From: Kiloniellaceae bacterium
Lineage (GTDB): Bacteria > Pseudomonadota > Alphaproteobacteria > Kiloniellales > J153
DNA: 64,000 nt
NCBI GenBank assembly: GCA_021776135.1
Contig: JAJFGL010000044.1
Span: 1-64,000, forward strand
Direction: 5' to 3'
The notes under the pieces are model-generated. The model was not told where the DNA came from and made no database searches. It was given only the letters and a program-made list of their open reading frames with translations. The position numbers and the translations under genes were made by a program. Positions 7,468 through 57,526 of the stretch are shown piece after piece (position 1 is the first letter of the stretch; the number at the start of each line of letters is the position of its first letter).

Positions 7468-9243
7468 TCAGCTTTCCGGAGACTGGGTTTCGGATTCCGG
7501 CCTCGATGCCTGTTTGTGGCGCTTCAGGAAGGCTTTCAGCGCCGAGTTGATGGTGGGAAAATCGTAGGCGCTCTGCGTTTCGTCTCTCTTTTTCGCCCAC
7601 TCGCCGGAGAAGAATCTGGCCCGGCTTCGCTTAGCGCGCGCCCGCGCGAGCACGATACCTTTCGCCGCCAGTTCCTCATGAAGTTCGTCGATCTTCTGAA
7701 CCGCAGTCAAATCCAATATATTGATCGGGCTGGCATCGATAACGACCCATTCGATGGGGGTCTCGGACGCGGCTATGGCCTCGAGAAGGCGCTGCTTAAA
7801 ATAGTCGATATTGTAGAATAACAAGTCGGATTCGAAGCGGTAAATGATAAGCCCCGGATAGGTCTTCGCGTCGGGATAATCCTGGATGCTGTGAAAACCT
7901 CTTAAACCGCTCCCCTTGGTTCGGCCCAGGATCGCGACCTGAGGCCGGGATCCGACATAAAGCAGCCAGGCGAAGGTCAAAAGGACACTCAAAAAGACAC
8001 CCGGAAGCGCCCCCAGGACAAGTATGCCGAGGGTGGTGCCAAGCGACAGCCCAAGCTCCCGGCGGCTTATGGCGAAGAGATTTCGCAGGGCGGCGAAATC
8101 GAACAAACCGAAGGCCGCGACCATGATGACCACGGCCAGGCCCGCGATGGGTACCCGGCCCAGGGGGCCGGTCAGAAAGAACAGCACCGCGAGCATGGCG
8201 CCGGCGGCGACGATCCCCACCAACTGGCTCTTGCCTCCCGTCGCGTCGTTGACCGCGGTGCGCGAGTCGGCGCCGGTGACGGGGAAACCCTGGGCGAGAC
8301 CGGTGAGAATATTCGCCGCGCCGAAGGCGATCATTTCCTGGTTGGCGTCTATCTCGTAACGGTTACGGCGGGCGAAACTCTTGGCGGTCAGAACCCCGCT
8401 GGTGAAGCTGATCAGCATTACGGCGGCCGCATCGCCGAACAGCTCCCCATAGGTTTGTAAACTAAAAGTCGCGAAATGGACGGTCGGAAGTCCCGCCGGC
8501 ACCTCGCCAAGAACCGCGACGCCTTGATCTTCGAGCCCGAAGACAACAACTGCGGCGATGCCGGTAATCACAACCATCAAGGCCGCGGGAACCCGCGGCG
8601 CGAAGCGGCGCAGCAGGATCAATAAAGTAAGCAGGGCGAGACCGAGAACCAGTGTCGGCAGGTAAGCTTGGTCGAAACGATCGAGCTTATTGAAAAATTC
8701 CAACAGCTTGGGAAAAAATTCACCGGTTTCGCTGGTGTAGCCGAACAGCTTGGAAAATTGCCCGACAATGATGAGTAAAGCGATTCCGTTGAGAAAACCG
8801 ACGAGAATAGGCTGCGACAGGAAATTCGCGATGAAGCCAAGCCGTGCGATACCGCCGACGACAAAGAGAACGCCGGTCATCAATGTCAAAACCACCATGA
8901 GCGCCAGGTACCTCTCGGGATCGCCGCCCGACAAGTGCCCGAGGCTGGCCGCCACCATGATGCAGGTCGCGGCATCGGGGCCGACCATCAGTTGACGGGA
9001 CGATCCGAACAGGGCGTAGGCGAGAAGCGGGAAAATCGACGAATACATACCGACGACAATCGGAACGCCCGCGAGCTCGGCGTAGGCAATGCCGATGGGA
9101 AGCGCTATGGCGGCGACGGACAGCCCGGCTGCGAAATCGTGCGGCAACCACGAGCGATCGTAGCGCGACAGGACTTCAAGGCCCGGCGCGAATTGGCGGA
9201 ACAGCTTCCGAAACTTTCCGGAACGATTGTCGCTGCGGCTCAT
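7468..9243 (-). CDS. SulP-family anion transporter with C-terminal STAS domain
   Basis: This 591-residue transporter belongs to the SulP/SLC26 family of sulfate, bicarbonate and other anion carriers. The N-terminal membrane domain starts after residue 35 with SWLPHDFAAGLSVAAIALP and contains the conserved PIGIAYAELAGV and GSSRQLMVGPDAA regions, with about 12-14 spans ending near residue 415. A cytosolic STAS domain follows (about 435-560) with YRFESDLLFYNIDYF and VVIDASPINILDLTA. The tail is charged. It is transcribed away from the Crp/Fnr regulator at 9440, with 196 bp between the two starts. The transported anion cannot be inferred. Confidence 0.92.
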   Translation of the reverse strand: MSRSDNRSGKFRKLFRQFAPGLEVLSRYDRSWLPHDFAAGLSVAAIALPIGIAYAELAGVPIVVGMYSSIFPLLAYALFGSSRQLMVGPDAATCIMVAASLGHLSGGDPERYLALMVVLTLMTGVLFVVGGIARLGFIANFLSQPILVGFLNGIALLIIVGQFSKLFGYTSETGEFFPKLLEFFNKLDRFDQAYLPTLVLGLALLTLLILLRRFAPRVPAALMVVITGIAAVVVFGLEDQGVAVLGEVPAGLPTVHFATFSLQTYGELFGDAAAVMLISFTSGVLTAKSFARRNRYEIDANQEMIAFGAANILTGLAQGFPVTGADSRTAVNDATGGKSQLVGIVAAGAMLAVLFFLTGPLGRVPIAGLAVVIMVAAFGLFDFAALRNLFAISRRELGLSLGTTLGILVLGALPGVFLSVLLTFAWLLYVGSRPQVAILGRTKGSGLRGFHSIQDYPDAKTYPGLIIYRFESDLLFYNIDYFKQRLLEAIAASETPIEWVVIDASPINILDLTAVQKIDELHEELAAKGIVLARARAKRSRARFFSGEWAKKRDETQSAYDFPTINSALKAFLKRHKQASRPESETQSPES

Positions 9244-9439
9244 GAATAACCTCCAGGCAACAGACAGACCGCGAGGAATTTTGAAAATGGTACTCGATCT
9301 GACAGCTACTGCAAAATATCGCGCAACGGCGCCGCCGGCGGCGGCGGCGGCCGGTTATTAGCCAAGCCGGATCTAAGTCTAGTGTGGGCCGCGTTTCGCG
9401 CGTAAACTGCCGCTATAGCGAGAGTGTGGGAGCTCGGTT

Positions 9440-10138
9440 GTGCAAGATTTCGACGGCAGATCGCTGTCCGGCATCGAAATGTTCGAGGGCCTTGACGAGG
9501 CGGAATGCAGACATCTTGAGGAACGCTGCCAATGGCGCCGTTTCTCCGCCGGGCAAACCATCCTGGAACAGGGCGGCGACAGCAGCGATGTCCTGTTCAT
9601 CGTCCAGGGCGCGGTCAATATCGTCAATTTCTCCCAGACGGGGCGTGAAATCGCCTACGCCAATTTAAGCGCCGGGGAGAGCTTCGGCGAGCTAGCCGCC
9701 ATCGACGGCCAGCCGCGTTCGGCCAGCGTGGTCGCGACCGAGGCGACCCTGGTGGCGGTCCTGCCGGCGGAGCGCTTTCTCGACCTGCTCAAGCACCAAG
9801 CGGCGGTGACCTTCCGCATGTTAACGCGCCTGACCGGCATGGTGCGCAGCGGCGACGTGCGGATCATGGAACTGAGCACCCTGGCCGCGACCCAGCGTGT
9901 CTTTGCCGAACTCTTGCGCATGGCCAAGCCCGACGCGGCGGGCACCGGCTTGTATGTCATTCACCCCCTGCCGCCCCTGCGCGAGGTCGCCAGCCGGGTC
10001 AGCACCACCCGCGAAACCGTGGCCCGCGCCATGAGCCAGCTCTATCCAAGCGGCATCATCCGGCGCAAGGGACGCAGCCTCTACATCATGGACCGCGGTA
10101 AGCTCGAAGACCTGCTGGCGACCATGAAGGCCGGTTAG
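9440..10138 (+). CDS. Crp/Fnr-family transcriptional regulator
   Basis: This 232-residue regulator has a cyclic-nucleotide-binding beta-roll (about residues 15-125, with GQTILEQGGDSSDVLFIVQG and SAGESFGELAAIDGQPRSAS), a long dimer helix and a C-terminal winged helix. The recognition helix reads STTRETVARAMSQL. Its R-E-T-V-x-R core matches the residues with which E. coli CRP reads TGTGA half-sites. There is no FNR-type N-terminal cluster of four Cys. The start is GTG 9440, with GGGAG about 7 bp upstream. It is divergent from the SulP gene and convergent with htpG. A cAMP-like ligand is plausible because the GELA/R-S phosphate-cassette pattern is kept. Confidence 0.9.
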   Translation: MQDFDGRSLSGIEMFEGLDEAECRHLEERCQWRRFSAGQTILEQGGDSSDVLFIVQGAVNIVNFSQTGREIAYANLSAGESFGELAAIDGQPRSASVVATEATLVAVLPAERFLDLLKHQAAVTFRMLTRLTGMVRSGDVRIMELSTLAATQRVFAELLRMAKPDAAGTGLYVIHPLPPLREVASRVSTTRETVARAMSQLYPSGIIRRKGRSLYIMDRGKLEDLLATMKAG

Positions 10139-28671: not shown

Positions 28672-29556
28672 TCATCCCAGTTTGAAGAATCGGATCAAGG
28701 CGTCCGCCGTCTCATCCGGAACTTCCTCTGGTAAAAAATGCCCAGCTGGCAGCGAGATTCCTTCAACGTCAGTCGCCTTTTCACGCCAGGTGCCTGGAAC
28801 ATCATAAAGTTTGCCGACCAACCCCTTCGCGCCCCATAGGGCAAGGACCGGCATCTCCAGCTGTTTCTCCCTGTCCTCTTCGTCGTGAACAAGATCGATC
28901 GAAGCTGCCGCACGATAGTCCTCGCATGTCGCCGCAATACAGGCCGCGTCACTGAAGCATCGGATATATTCGGCTACTGCATCATCGGTAAAAGCTGCAG
29001 AATTGCCCTTGTTCCATGCAGCGAGCTTGCTGCGCAAATAAAATCCCGGATCAGCGCCAATGAGTTTTTCAGGCAGTGGCGACGGCTGAATGAGAAAGAA
29101 CCAGTGATAGTACCCCGTGGCAAATTCCCGATCGGTCCGCGCATACATGGTCGCTGTCGGCGCGATGTCGAGTACGGCAAGGCGTTCGACGGCGTCGGGA
29201 TGATCAAGACCAAGGCGATGCGCCACACGGGCGCCCCGATCATGACCTGCCAAACAAAACCGGTTGAATCCCAAGAGAGACATCATCTCAACCTGATCAG
29301 CGGCCATGGCGCGCTTAGAATAGGTTTCGTGGTTGTCGCACGAGACGGGCTTGTCGGAATCGCCATACCCGCGCAAATCGCTGACAATGACAGTAAATCC
29401 AGCCGCCACGAGTTGCGGCGCAACCTTGTGCCAACAAATGTGAGTCTGCGGATATCCATGGAGAAGCAGTACCGGCGGGCCACTGCCAGCCATGCGGGCA
29501 CGAAGTTCTACGCCATCAGATACCTTAATTCGCTGATCAGTGAACCCTTCGAACAC
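28672..29556 (-). CDS. Fluoroacetate/haloacetate dehalogenase-like alpha/beta hydrolase
   Basis: This 294-residue hydrolase matches haloacetate dehalogenases, which displace fluoride or chloride from haloacetates through an aspartyl ester. Numbered from MFEGF, it has the nucleophile Asp106 with carboxylate-binding Arg107 and Arg110 (AGHDRGARVAHRL), halide-pocket His151 and Trp152 (YYHWFFLIQP) and Tyr214 (CEDYRAAASID), and catalytic His273 (LPAGHFLPEE). The PEKLIGADP segment also matches. I start at GTG 29556, which aligns with the family N-terminus MFEGF; GTG 29571 is in frame. The gene is visibly AT-richer than both neighbours, suggesting transfer. Exact substrate range is not proven. Confidence 0.86.
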   Translation of the reverse strand: MFEGFTDQRIKVSDGVELRARMAGSGPPVLLLHGYPQTHICWHKVAPQLVAAGFTVIVSDLRGYGDSDKPVSCDNHETYSKRAMAADQVEMMSLLGFNRFCLAGHDRGARVAHRLGLDHPDAVERLAVLDIAPTATMYARTDREFATGYYHWFFLIQPSPLPEKLIGADPGFYLRSKLAAWNKGNSAAFTDDAVAEYIRCFSDAACIAATCEDYRAAASIDLVHDEEDREKQLEMPVLALWGAKGLVGKLYDVPGTWREKATDVEGISLPAGHFLPEEVPDETADALIRFFKLG

Positions 29557-29678
29557 GCTTCCCGACTCCACTTACCTTATAATTTCTTCCATAGACGCGA
29601 GCTTCTCACAATATGTCACTTTACCACATTTGGCTCCAAACACAGAAATTTACTAATGTGGGTGTCGCAAAAACCATC

Positions 29679-29810
29679 CTAAAAATCGGTGATCAGAGGC
29701 AGGGTCAGAACTAGGAGGAAAGGAAATGCGAACATGCCGCCAACGAGAAAAGCCAGGCAATCGTAAACGTACAGGGTGTTCTTTTTGGGGCGGTAAATTC
29801 GCTTTGCCAT
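29679..29810 (-). CDS. 43-residue single-span membrane protein, copy A
   Basis: This small gene has an ATG with a strong upstream AGAGGAAAGG (8-nt spacing). The protein starts MAK, has a basic N-terminus to residue 10, then Asp17, and one hydrophobic span from about 18 to 40, ending in Phe43. It aligns without gaps to the protein at 30832-30963: the same length and 16 of 43 identical residues (M1, A2, K3, D17, L19, A20, G24, A28, P30, F31, L33, V34, L35, P38, I40, F43). Basic residues before the span suggest the N-terminus stays in the cytoplasm. I do not recognise the family. Its promoter carries two CRP-like boxes. Confidence 0.8.
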   Translation of the reverse strand: MAKRIYRPKKNTLYVYDCLAFLVGGMFAFPFLLVLTLPLITDF

Positions 29811-29869
29811 GATCTAAACCTTTCCTCTGCGGGGCGCTGGGCCCTTGGGTTCGTGTTTCGCTTGCTATG

Positions 29870-29875
29870 ATCATA
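29870..29875 (-). promoter_or_regulatory. -10-like hexamer of small gene A
   Basis: TATGAT on the minus strand (five of six consensus bases) starts 34.5 bp from the centre of the nearer CRP-like box and 16 nt after the CGTGAG element. That would place transcription about 50 nt before the start codon. There is no good -35, as expected for an activator-dependent promoter. Confidence 0.5.
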
Positions 29876-29891
29876 GTTAAGCGCAGATGGC

Positions 29892-29897
29892 CTCACG
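29892..29897 (-). promoter_or_regulatory. Conserved CGTGAG element of small gene A
   Basis: CTCACG on the plus strand (CGTGAG on the coding strand) lies four bases from the nearer CRP-like box. The same hexamer lies at exactly the same offset at 31031-31036 before the paralogous gene. It occupies the -35 position without matching the consensus. Confidence 0.5.
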
Positions 29898-29901
29898 CGG
29901 C

Positions 29902-29917
29902 TGTGATGGCGGTCACG
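29902..29917. promoter_or_regulatory. CRP-like box, proximal, small gene A
   Basis: TGTGATGGCGGTCACG fits TGTGA-N6-TCACA with one mismatch. Its centre at 29909.5 is about 46 bp upstream of the inferred transcription start of the gene at 29679-29810. Confidence 0.65.
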
Positions 29918-29932
29918 GGAATGCCGGACTAG

Positions 29933-29950
29933 GTGTGACCGGGGTCACAC
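29933..29950. promoter_or_regulatory. CRP-like box, distal, small gene A
   Basis: A perfect 18-bp inverted repeat, GTGTGACC-GG-GGTCACAC, contains the full CRP consensus TGTGA-N6-TCACA. Its centre at 29941.5 is exactly 32 bp from the proximal box. Confidence 0.7.
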
Positions 29951-30013
29951 AAACGGCCCTTTAAGGCCTCGGAAGGGGAAGCTAGCGGGCTTTTCGGCGT
30001 GCTTAGAGCAGAA

Positions 30014-30655
30014 TCACGCCAGGATGCGCGCCGAATCGATCAATTCGACCCCGGCCCCGGCCATGGCGCTTTTGGCGGCTTTGAGCGAGTTATCCAGGTC
30101 GATGGCGCGGCAGGCGTCCTCGATTACCAAGGCGCCGAACCCCTCGCGCACGGCGTCGACGGCCGAAAAATGGACGCAGAAATCGGCCGCCAGGCCGGCC
30201 AGGAACACGCGCTCGAAGCCGCGCGTCCGCAGATATCCGGTCAGGCCGGTGGGAGTCGTGCGGTCATTTTCGAAAAACGCCGAATAGGAATCGATTTCGG
30301 GCCGGAAGCCCTTGCGGACGATCAACTCGCCCCGGGCCGTATCGAGATCCTTGTGAAAATCCGCGCCCGGCGTGCCCTGAACGCAATGATCCGGCCACAG
30401 GGTTTGCGCGCCGTATGCCATCTCCAGAGTCTCGAAGGGCGCGCGCCCCCCATGGCTGGAGGCAAAGGACCGATGCCCCGCCGGATGCCAGTCCTGGGTC
30501 AAGATCACATGGGCGAAACGCGCCGCCAGACGGTTGATGAGCGGGACCACCGCATCGCCCTGGGGCACGGCCAGGCCGCCGCCGGGGCAAAAATCGTTTT
30601 GGATATCGATCAGAAGCAAGACATCCGATTGCTTGGGGACTATGAGGTCAGCCAT
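30014..30655 (-). CDS. pncA: Nicotinamidase (isochorismatase-like)
   Basis: This 213-residue cytosolic amidase converts nicotinamide to nicotinate in NAD salvage. The catalytic Asp is in LLIDIQNDFCPGG (near residue 17), the metal motif is TQDWHPAGHRSF, the Lys is in IVRKGFRPEIDSYSAF, and the nucleophilic Cys is in AGLAADFCVHFSAVDA. The FCPGG and SYSAF stretches distinguish PncA from other isochorismatase-like hydrolases. It sits between the two small membrane protein genes, on the same strand. Its nicotinate product would be a possible substrate of the locus at 44631-57526, but nothing else links them. Confidence 0.93.
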   Translation of the reverse strand: MADLIVPKQSDVLLLIDIQNDFCPGGGLAVPQGDAVVPLINRLAARFAHVILTQDWHPAGHRSFASSHGGRAPFETLEMAYGAQTLWPDHCVQGTPGADFHKDLDTARGELIVRKGFRPEIDSYSAFFENDRTTPTGLTGYLRTRGFERVFLAGLAADFCVHFSAVDAVREGFGALVIEDACRAIDLDNSLKAAKSAMAGAGVELIDSARILA

Positions 30656-30738
30656 GGCAGTTCCCGCGTTTCAGTCCGCCTGGGAAGCGGCGGCGGCCAG
30701 GCAAAGGCTGCCACAGGTACGCCGCGGCGCAAAACCCC

Positions 30739-30774
30739 AAAAAAAGGGCGTGGCCCCGTTATGGAGACCACGCC
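30739..30774 (-). terminator. Rho-independent terminator after small gene B
   Basis: On the minus strand a 7-bp stem (GGCGTGG at 30774-30768 with CCACGCC at 30753-30747), a 14-nt loop and a run of seven T (30745-30739) form an intrinsic terminator about 58 bp past the stop of the small gene at 30832. It isolates that gene from pncA. Confidence 0.8.
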
Positions 30775-30831
30775 AAGTTGGTCGGGAGGAAGCGAATCGG
30801 CGGAAAACCGTCAATTCGCGAGGGCGGAAGC

Positions 30832-30963
30832 CTAAAATCCCGCGATAAAGGGGGAAACCAAGACCAGGGCGAAGGGCGCGGCGATGATGGTGCCTGCCAC
30901 GACCGCCAGGACGTCGAGGGTGAAAATCGAGCTATCGCGCAAAAAATTGGAATGCTTTGCCAT
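30832..30963 (-). CDS. 43-residue single-span membrane protein, copy B
   Basis: This second small gene has ATG preceded by GGGAG at 9-nt spacing. The protein is 43 residues, starts MAK, has a polar N-terminus to about residue 16, Asp17, then a hydrophobic span (about 18-40) with the shared PF-x-LVL core at 30-35, Pro38 and a final Phe43. It is a paralogue of the protein at 29679-29810, with no gaps and equal length. Its own terminator follows and its own two-box promoter precedes, so it is an independent transcription unit. The function is unknown; size and topology suggest a subunit or regulator of a membrane complex. Confidence 0.8.
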   Translation of the reverse strand: MAKHSNFLRDSSIFTLDVLAVVAGTIIAAPFALVLVSPFIAGF

Positions 30964-31008
30964 GAAAATTTTCTCCCGCTTCGTGGGGCGCTAGTCCCCG
31001 TGCTCATG

Positions 31009-31014
31009 ACTAGA
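31009..31014 (-). promoter_or_regulatory. -10-like hexamer of small gene B
   Basis: TCTAGT on the minus strand (four of six consensus bases) lies 34.5 bp from the proximal CRP-like box centre, the same distance as TATGAT in the paralogous promoter. It is weak on its own and supported mainly by the shared geometry. Confidence 0.4.
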
Positions 31015-31030
31015 ACTTGGCCGTGAAAGG

Positions 31031-31036
31031 CTCACG
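31031..31036 (-). promoter_or_regulatory. Conserved CGTGAG element of small gene B
   Basis: CTCACG on the plus strand lies four bases from the proximal CRP-like box, exactly as at 29892-29897. It also forms the right half of a shorter inverted repeat, CGTGA-N5-TCACG, at 31022-31036. Confidence 0.5.
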
Positions 31037-31040
31037 AGAA

Positions 31041-31056
31041 AGTGACGCGCGTCACA
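31041..31056. promoter_or_regulatory. CRP-like box, proximal, small gene B
   Basis: AGTGACGCGCGTCACA fits TGTGA-N6-TCACA with one mismatch and contains the perfect palindrome GTGACGCGCGTCAC. Its centre is at 31048.5. Confidence 0.65.
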
Positions 31057-31072
31057 AAACCGCGTGCGGGCG

Positions 31073-31088
31073 CGTGACGGAGGTCACA
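31073..31088. promoter_or_regulatory. CRP-like box, distal, small gene B
   Basis: CGTGACGGAGGTCACA fits TGTGA-N6-TCACA with one mismatch. Its centre at 31080.5 is exactly 32 bp from the proximal box, the same spacing as before small gene A. Confidence 0.65.
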
Positions 31089-31097
31089 CCGGAGCCG

Positions 31098-31138
31098 GTT
31101 TACTTCTGGGAGAGGGCCAGTTTACTTCTGGGAGAGGG
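31098..31138. repeat. Two-copy 22-bp tandem repeat
   Basis: The 19-base unit GTTTACTTCTGGGAGAGGG occurs at 31098-31116 and 31120-31138, giving a 22-bp period. It lies between the distal CRP-like box and the end of the DUF1223 gene. A recent slippage or duplication is likely. Confidence 0.75.
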
Positions 31139-31159
31139 AGAGAGGGTGCGGACCCCGTA

Positions 31160-31912
31160 CTATTGGGTCAGGTTATCCAGCCGCATCAGGCCGGCGCCGA
31201 TAATCGGGCCATTGCGGCCTTGCTGCACAAGAACGGCGCAACCGAAATTACCCCGCGCCACGGCGTCATCCAGATTAAGCGGGATCTCCAGGCGCTGGCC
31301 CATCCAGGTTCCCAGACGCTCCAAACGCCGCACGACATTGACATTGCGGATCCTGAGGCCCGCGTTCTCGCCGCGTTTCACCTGGGTATCGTGACCTTCA
31401 TCGAAGATCGCGAGCCAAATCGTCGCCCCGCGATCGGGGGCGTGACCTTGGGATATGACGACCTTGCCGCCATCGCCAGATACGAAATCCACGGCGACGG
31501 GCTTGGGGCGTTCAAGCGACGCATCAAGCTTCGCCAGGACTTCGTTGCGGCGGGAACCGACAATATTGTAACGGCCGTCGATGACCATTTGCGGCGTGTA
31601 GATATAGCGCAGACCCAAGGTCTCGGCGTAGGCGCGCTGCCGCTCGGTGTTTCGCGGGCTGCCGTAGGGGTCTTTCCAGCCGATGTAGTCCCAGTAGTCC
31701 ACATGCAGCGATAAGGCGATCACGTCGGCGCGTTCGGCCAGCTCTTCAAGCAGGGCATCGGCGGGCGGGCAGGAACTGCACCCCTGAGAGGTAAAGAGCT
31801 CGACCACGACCGCTTGGTGGCCGCCGGTCTCCGCCCGGCCGGGAGTGGCGGCTAGCGCGGCGCAAAATAGAACCGCCAGGGCCAAGCCGCCAAGATGAAA
31901 CCTTCTAATCAT
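31160..31912 (-). CDS. DUF1223 thioredoxin-like periplasmic protein
   Basis: This 250-residue secreted protein has a signal peptide (about 1-27, ending near GRAET) and a thioredoxin-like N-terminal half with VVELFTSQGCSSCPPADALL, whose CSSC is the redox-type CxxC motif. The conserved VIALSLHVDYWDYIGWKDPYG and YTPQMVIDGRYNIVGS segments define the DUF1223 family. A C-terminal half of beta-strands follows. Periplasmic thiol chemistry is likely, but no substrate is known. It is on the same strand as small gene B but separated by that gene's promoter. Confidence 0.88.
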   Translation of the reverse strand: MIRRFHLGGLALAVLFCAALAATPGRAETGGHQAVVVELFTSQGCSSCPPADALLEELAERADVIALSLHVDYWDYIGWKDPYGSPRNTERQRAYAETLGLRYIYTPQMVIDGRYNIVGSRRNEVLAKLDASLERPKPVAVDFVSGDGGKVVISQGHAPDRGATIWLAIFDEGHDTQVKRGENAGLRIRNVNVVRRLERLGTWMGQRLEIPLNLDDAVARGNFGCAVLVQQGRNGPIIGAGLMRLDNLTQ

Positions 31913-56708: not shown

Positions 56709-57526
56709 CCGGCAATCGCGCGCCGAGCCAACTCGGCAGCCGCTTCCCTGCGGTAGGCGGCCGAGGCGCGCACATCGTCCAGGGGCGATAGACGATCGAA
56801 ATGCGCGGGCTCTACCGCCTGGGCCAAGGTCTCATCCAGATGCTTACCGATCAGCGTCTTCTCCAATTCCGGCAAGCGCAGAGCCACTTCGGAGCAGGCG
56901 CCGACCGAAACCTGCGCGCACGACACCTTGTTATCGGCCCCGGTTTCGATACGGGCCGCCACCATGGCAATGGAAATGACCAGGTAGCGCCGGGAACCCA
57001 ACTTAACGAAATTCGACCGACCTTGCGCGGACGCGGCTGGGACCGTGATCCCGGTCACGATCTCGTCCGGGCGCAGGGCGGTCACGCGATTGCCTAGGAT
57101 AAAATCAGCCAGGGGGATTTGACGCCTGCCCCGTGAGGATGCCGCCTCCACCGCCGCATCGAGAACCAACAAGGGCGGCACTCCATCGGCGGCCGGCGAG
57201 GCATTGCAGATATTACCCGCGACCGTGGCCCGGTTTTGTATTTGCACCGAGCCGACTTCGCGCGCGGCCTGCTTCAGGGCATGAAAGGCGGGCGGCAAAT
57301 CGGCGGCGATCGCATCGCTCCAGGTTGTCAGCGCACCGATGCGCCAACACCCCTCTTCGCGCCGAATACCGCGCAAGGACTCAAGCGCCGAAAGGTCAAG
57401 AACCGGCGCGGTGGGCGCCCGCTCACCCAGGGCGGGATAGAAATCGGTGCCGCCCGCGAGGACCGTCCAGCGGTCCTCCGCCAAGAGCGATAGCGCCGCA
57501 TCCAGCGTCGTCGGCCTCTCATACAT
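56696..57526 (-). CDS. FAD-binding subunit of molybdenum hydroxylase
   Basis: This 276-residue protein is the flavin subunit (CoxM/XdhB type). The FAD pyrophosphate loop is TVLAGGTDFYPAL and the second site is NRATVAGNICNASPAADGVPPLLVLDA. The C-terminal CO dehydrogenase flavoprotein domain begins about residue 170. It begins at ATG 57526 and is the first gene of the six-gene operon. The 78 bp before it hold short repeats of CAGTA but no clear promoter. Confidence 0.9.
   Translation of the reverse strand: MYERPTTLDAALSLLAEDRWTVLAGGTDFYPALGERAPTAPVLDLSALESLRGIRREEGCWRIGALTTWSDAIAADLPPAFHALKQAAREVGSVQIQNRATVAGNICNASPAADGVPPLLVLDAAVEAASSRGRRQIPLADFILGNRVTALRPDEIVTGITVPAASAQGRSNFVKLGSRRYLVISIAMVAARIETGADNKVSCAQVSVGACSEVALRLPELEKTLIGKHLDETLAQAVEPAHFDRLSPLDDVRASAAYRREAAAELARRAIAGCLA

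Follow-up and report, generated by a model that had tools for sequence, protein, structure and literature searches.

Our analysis of a 64,000-nucleotide stretch of DNA from a Kiloniellaceae bacterium (assembly GCA_021776135.1, contig JAJFGL010000044.1, positions 1 to 64,000; hereafter the window) suggests that two short genes on its minus strand, A and B, are quite probably paralogous targets of one and the same CRP-type activator, for which the product of the gene at 9440-10138 is the most likely candidate, and that activation likely follows the class II mode. Each gene is preceded by two CRP-type boxes, all four of which have an exact GTGA-N6-TCAC core:

29679..29810, minus strand: small gene A, 43 residues, predicted single-helix membrane protein
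29902..29917, minus strand: proximal CRP-type box of gene A, predicted centre at -41.5
29934..29949, minus strand: distal CRP-type box of gene A, predicted centre at -73.5
30832..30963, minus strand: small gene B, 43 residues, predicted single-helix membrane protein
31041..31056, minus strand: proximal CRP-type box of gene B, predicted centre at -41.5
31073..31088, minus strand: distal CRP-type box of gene B, predicted centre at -73.5
9440..10138, plus strand: CRP/FNR-family regulator, 232 residues, recognition helix STTRETVARAM, proposed cognate activator

The four boxes depart from TGTGA-N6-TCACA at no more than one position each, and their centres lie at 29909.5 and 29941.5 (A) and at 31048.5 and 31080.5 (B), i.e., 32 base pairs (bp) apart in each pair, exactly as the initial annotation of this DNA had described; the second box is thus located on the same face of the DNA, whole helical turns away. 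The sequence CTCACG, said to lie four bases from the proximal box in both promoters, is likewise found there when counted from the proximal 16-mer. The claim that one distal box is a perfect 18-bp palindrome has to be corrected, since the box in question (gene A, 29933-29950, GTGTGACCGGGGTCACAC) is palindromic at 16 of 18 positions, with a central GG that breaks the symmetry. Because the window holds no excess of TGTGA-N6-TCACA when up to two mismatches are allowed (10 sites for an expectation of 10.0), the evidential weight rests on exact cores and on their pairing. Five exact GTGA-N6-TCAC cores are present in the window and four of them are the boxes of A and B. Across the whole 3.96-Mb draft genome there are 34 strict cores (GTGAYN4RTCAC), compared with four occurrences of the reversed pattern, and the genome scan for box pairs that had been proposed along with the initial annotation returned three places with two exact cores at a gap of 8-37 bp, two of which are the pairs of A and B (control, none). 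The fifth core of the window is located at 57045-57058, and an exact 19-bp direct repeat (GTTTACTTCTGGGAGAGGG, 31098-31116 and 31120-31138, 22 bp apart) is found a short way upstream of gene B's distal box.

A search with the small-protein alignment yielded 21 matches in 14 of the 61 genomes of the order. The initial annotation had made its proposal depend on the boxes being conserved upstream of homologous small genes, and indeed an exact GTGA-N6-TCAC core is kept upstream of 17 of these 21, with its centre ~65-135 bp before the assigned start codon. The 32-bp pair is kept before both A and B in three sister species (G001, G002 and G003; G and L numbers are our designations for genomes and loci). 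When the 61 genomes were scanned for pairs of strict cores with a gap of 8-37 bp, 12 places were found, nine at 32 bp and three at 33 bp, while the reversed pattern gave no pair. Eight of the nine 32-bp pairs stand before A and B across the four species of the genus and the ninth is located behind the crp orthologue of G033; in other families most homologues still have a box, and the box-bearing small genes there have one each, counting exact cores. Conservation in four species and in two paralogues supports the earlier proposals of shared control, of a spacing not due to chance and of about three helical turns between the presumed dimers.

The position of the -10 element was assessed by aligning promoters on the proximal box. 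The alignment comprises 23 promoters, namely 20 of small genes and three of a locus with a 33-bp pair (see below), and omits L011 (a near-identical copy in G026), the boxless L014 and the weak or odd L042, L043, L044, L055 and L057. Scored as the mean match to TAxxxT (maximum 3) and compared with shuffles preserving base composition only, the 23 promoters reach their highest value, 1.96, for hexamers that start 29.5 bp from the box centre, and a second, lower maximum of 1.35 is seen at 34.5 bp. The 20 small-gene promoters score 1.8 at 29.5 bp versus 1.4 at 34.5 bp, and none of 2000 shuffles reaches 1.8 at any offset; a reduced set (n = 10) gives 2.0 versus 1.5, again with 0 of 2000 shuffles. 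Two promoters from G364 have overlapping boxes, and the downstream, imperfect box was used at first, which favours 29.5 bp. Their omission (n = 18) yields 1.72 versus 1.5, and the use of their upstream boxes instead (n = 20) 1.6 versus 1.35 (0 of 1000 shuffles in both cases). Promoters from outside the genus (n = 10) score 1.7 versus 1.3 (0 of 1000 shuffles), and the reduced set without G364 (n = 8) 1.88 versus 1.75. Five promoters behind crp genes form a second set, which was not blind since the 29.5-bp hexamer had been marked before scoring; they match at 2, 2, 2, 2 and 3 positions at 29.5 bp and at 0, 0, 0, 1 and 2 positions at 34.5 bp. Over all promoters we thus favour the 29.5-bp hexamer as the putative -10 element, which would centre the proximal box at -41.5 and its distal partner at -73.5. 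A sigma-70 consensus promoter was not found in 29500-31200. The resulting assignments, together with those of the initial annotation, are:

29875..29880, minus strand: TTAACT, the -10 hexamer favoured for gene A, starting 29.5 bp from the centre of the proximal box
29868..29868, minus strand: predicted transcription start of gene A, 41.5 bp downstream of the proximal box centre
31014..31019, minus strand: CAAGTT, the -10 hexamer favoured for gene B, starting 29.5 bp from the centre of the proximal box
31007..31007, minus strand: predicted transcription start of gene B, from the same geometry
29870-29875, minus strand: TATGAT, the -10 hexamer of gene A in the initial annotation
31009-31014, minus strand: TCTAGT, the -10 hexamer of gene B in the initial annotation

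The proposed regulator contains an HTH_Crp_2 domain (43.6 bits; Pfam cut-off 27). Six proteins of the genome score above this cut-off, and the protein encoded at 9440-10138 is the only one with an R-E-xxx-R recognition helix, the others having an FNR-like E-xx-S-R helix (four proteins) or R-Q-xxx-K (one protein). Its R, E and R align with R180, E181 and R185 of E. coli K-12 CRP, and the regulator retains the nucleotide-pocket residues E72, R82 and S83 in the alignment with that protein, for which we assume the customary residue numbering and roles. A cyclic nucleotide is a plausible ligand, since eleven cyclase domains (PF00211) score above the cut-off in the genome. The regulator gene is located between open reading frames (ORFs) that we take to encode a SulP transporter-like and an HtpG-like protein, and a search of 9150-9560 for an autoregulation box before it, allowing two core mismatches, found none. 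The regulator has relatives at E ≤ 1e-30 in 33 of the 61 genomes of the order. The 17 box-bearing small genes are spread over 11 genomes of the order, and each of these 11 has an orthologue with at least 56% identity.

That the regulator likely acts as an activator of the small genes is suggested by gene order, because a small gene lies directly behind its orthologue in five relatives (G007, G020, G026, G029 and G036), on the same strand and within ~400 bp, with a box in between (~280 bp behind the crp stop codon in G036). In G000 and G001 crp is found ~20 kb from the small gene on the same contig. Boxes behind crp are also seen in G008, G058, G022 and G015, and a box pair in G033, in each case with no recognised small gene of the family at that place. 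At least nine of 25 inspected crp loci (30 fetched) have a box within 150 bp behind the stop codon, a lower bound (no crp frame was found in L109, L117 and L129, and a wrong one in L116 and L118-L120). The order in G007 is crp, small gene, nicotinamidase-like gene; in G008 it is crp, box, nicotinamidase-like gene; and in the genus of the window gene B, nicotinamidase-like gene, gene A. At L121 (G022), L127 (G015) and L106 (G008) the box behind crp is followed by a short sequence in which terminator-like hairpins are seen by eye, and it is possible that these sequences are small RNAs occupying the same slot.

The products of A and B share 37% identity over 43 codons each. When compared with orthologues in the three sister species, the uncorrected ratio of nonsynonymous to synonymous differences (pN/pS) is 0.32-0.45 for gene A, 0.25-0.44 for gene B and 0.25-0.60 over 12 comparisons of small-gene ORFs, which speaks for A and B encoding constrained proteins. 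AlphaFold2 predicts the product of gene B as a single helix spanning residues 3-40 (mean predicted local distance difference test score, pLDDT, 81.8; predicted template modelling score, pTM, 0.44; 8 sequences), and the peptides probably reside in the membrane. D17, A20, P30, F31 and P38 are invariant in an alignment of 15 homologues. None of these 15 members matches a Pfam family, and the NCBIfam matches do not go beyond chance, with a single member hitting each of two families (E 0.13 and 0.15). A four-row alignment matched three named metagenome-assembled genomes, Kiloniellaceae bacterium OFTM138, OFTM28 and OFTM296. L042 (G049) and L043 (G045) encode longer relatives of 67 residues with a similar C-terminal helix, and no regulator orthologue was found at 1e-30 in either genome. 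A GGGG-loop-CCCC hairpin seen by eye in the 5' untranslated region of 11 sequences was set aside, as its pairs are mostly unvaried G-C and its register shifts. Two further features of the neighbourhood are:

30747..30774, minus strand: terminator-like site behind gene B, an 11-pair stem followed by C and seven T
30014..30655, minus strand: gene between B and A for a 213-residue protein with the motif DxQNDFCPGGxL, which we take to be nicotinamidase-like (pncA-type)

In view of the terminator-like site 3' of B, the mRNA of gene B would measure ~270 nucleotides if the predicted start is right. In L058 (G002) and L007 (G004) a gene that presumably encodes an extradiol dioxygenase-like protein separates the small gene from the nicotinamidase-like gene; it is absent from this place in the window.

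Several observations weigh against the assignment of A and B to this regulator, or against its generality. The small gene and crp are found on different contigs in the draft genomes G002, G003, G004 and G033; seven genomes of the order have an orthologue with at least 56% identity and no recognised small gene; and the 9440-10138 protein lacks the counterparts of T127 and S128 of E. coli CRP, which leaves its ligand uncertain. Two of the 21 matches in the order (L014 and L044) lack a box, while two exact cores of a different make, 62 bp apart, precede L042 and L043. In the class, the small protein is matched in five of 385 genomes (own genome included), and the six matches outside the own genome comprise three with an exact core, one with two imperfect cores and two with none. 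Specificity of the spacing is likewise called into question: 25 pair places were found in 18 of 384 other genomes of the class, seven of them at 32 bp (five in G067, one each in G182 and G370) and the others at 23 to 49 bp. The 32-bp pairs inspected in these three genomes precede other genes, and the hexamer at 29.5 bp matches at only 0-1 of 3 positions in G067 and G182, and at 2 in one orientation in G370. Finally, the compared sequences are related, so that counts across genomes are not independent.

The -10 hexamers proposed in the initial annotation deserve particular attention. TATGAT (A) and TCTAGT (B) do start 34.5 bp from the centre of the proximal box, and if they were the true -10 elements, real regulator sites would be centred at about -46.5 and -78.5, a non-classical arrangement that could mean repression or another contact with RNA polymerase. 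For gene A, TATGAT matches the -10 consensus at five of six positions; hexamers at 34.5 bp rank second when all promoters are considered (1.35-1.4 of 3) and, with 1.4 of 3 in the 20 small-gene promoters, also exceed the shuffles; and within the genus alone (n = 8) the two positions tie (1.75 versus 1.75; 18 of 1000 shuffles). For A and B the two hexamers overlap, and conservation in the genus cannot tell them apart; moreover, CCAAGT, one base upstream of the favoured CAAGTT of gene B, resembles the orthologues better. Sets that extend beyond the genus nevertheless all put 29.5 bp ahead, as do the five crp-downstream promoters, and at the 33-bp locus this very position is occupied by TAAATT or TAAGTT in all three promoters. 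The earlier choice is thus tenable within the genus and second best overall, outside the genus and behind crp genes, and we consider it unlikely to be right, albeit as the most serious competitor of the class II arrangement.

It is less likely that the boxes are bound by another CRP/FNR protein, or by a regulator of another family, and that the link to 9440-10138 reflects old synteny only. The genome encodes six CRP/FNR proteins and palindromes of this type are not tied to one protein, yet the other five lack R-E-xxx-R, and behind crp there is a small gene in five relatives, a box in G008, G058, G022 and G015 and a pair in G033. Slightly less probable still is that the boxes are operators through which the regulator represses A and B, or that the transcripts act as RNA with the ORFs being secondary. 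In G022 and G015 a terminator-like hairpin, with no small ORF of the family, lies beyond the box behind crp, which fits such a scheme, as does the box pair before a stretch of ~400 nucleotides without an ORF in the genus. Nonetheless, -41.5 is an activating position for E. coli CRP, no sigma-70 consensus promoter that could need repression was found in 29500-31200, and the pN/pS values given above speak for constraint on the ORFs. Chance, or a functionless local duplication of a promoter, is hardly credible: although a promoter may be copied along with a gene and A and B are paralogues, their identity is just 37% while the spacing is equal in A, in B and in four species, and the absence of any reversed-pattern pair from the 61 genomes as well as the conservation itself contradict this explanation.

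Box pairs are also observed at other places. At L020 (G000:C46:44329-44375), L098 (G003) and L099 (G001) the boxes are 33 bp apart, with TAAATT or TAAGTT at exactly 29.5 bp, and precede a conserved stretch of ~400 nucleotides in which no conserved ORF was seen and which ends in a terminator-like hairpin; it adjoins a small gene that we take to be YqaE/Pmp3-like. This locus is a candidate for a non-coding RNA of the same regulon. At gathering thresholds, Rfam gave no match in six loci, L020 included. Outside the order, G067 has five pairs at exactly 32 bp (L159-L163), several of which, by eye, precede ORF starts resembling signal peptides, and G369 has three pairs at 42-43 bp, i.e., four turns (L166-L168). 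Possible further targets in the own genome, listed with coding and intergenic boxes pooled and hence leads only, are a 66-residue ORF behind TGTGACCGCCATCACA with TATATT at 29.5 bp (L094) and two presumably CBS-domain-like genes with a box ~110 bp upstream (L073 and L075).

The promoter logic of A and B is of a known kind. Class II CRP promoters of E. coli have their box at -41.5, and in tandem (class III) promoters a second CRP-type box is located upstream. The promoters of A and B resemble the former in having a TGTGA-N6-TCACA box and no consensus -35 element, and if the favoured reading holds they would also share a -10 element starting 29.5 bp from the box centre; they differ in belonging to another bacterial class with a distant regulator, and in having a second box three turns upstream. 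With tandem class III promoters they share the second CRP-type box on the same face of the DNA, whereas the fixation of the 32-bp spacing in two paralogues and four species sets them apart. A further parallel is offered by CgrA of Rhodospirillum centenum, an alphaproteobacterial CRP-family receptor of cyclic GMP for which a TGTGA-N6-TCACA footprint and activation of the small ORF RC1_3784 are reported (PMC4681086). The candidate of the window is likewise an alphaproteobacterial CRP-family protein, proposed to act at such boxes before small ORFs. The similarity does not extend to the neighbourhood, by which (rather than by alignment) the two were compared: cgrA is accompanied by gcyB and gcyC, while 9440-10138 is flanked by the SulP-like and HtpG-like ORFs, and no gcyB/gcyC cluster was recognised among its neighbours, the labels of which are presumed, with no family search made.

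One may envisage that the regulator takes up its ligand, which is probably a cyclic nucleotide, and then occupies the proximal box as a dimer. From there, most likely centred at -41.5, the dimer would bring in RNA polymerase as at class II promoters, to a -10 element that is poor and has no consensus -35 to go with it. A second dimer bound three turns upstream, at -73.5 and on the same face of the DNA, would add contacts and sharpen the response. The output would be short mRNAs, each encoding a 43-residue single-helix peptide that is probably inserted into the membrane. Because its gene neighbours the regulator gene in some relatives, the peptide may be an output, and possibly a feedback partner, of the regulator. 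It is then tempting to speculate, although we consider it rather doubtful, that Alphaproteobacteria possess a conserved two-part module in which a CRP-type receptor of cyclic nucleotides controls, via its own box, a dedicated membrane peptide of 38-43 residues that feeds back on the signal, e.g., by binding a membrane-bound nucleotide cyclase or phosphodiesterase, and in which the slot behind crp is taken by a small RNA in part of the group. Neither the peptide family nor its link to the regulator gene was found in Pfam, in NCBIfam or in a literature search aimed at the small protein.

Taken together, an anonymous pair of boxes becomes a regulatory module that can be tested, in that it names a candidate for the regulator, offers two sets of predicted starts and includes a peptide family absent from Pfam and NCBIfam. 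Small membrane proteins under the control of one global regulator are easily overlooked in annotation, and the present family can be found by its promoter too. If confirmed, the arrangement would mean that a lineage distant from E. coli has retained tandem CRP-type sites spaced by three helical turns.

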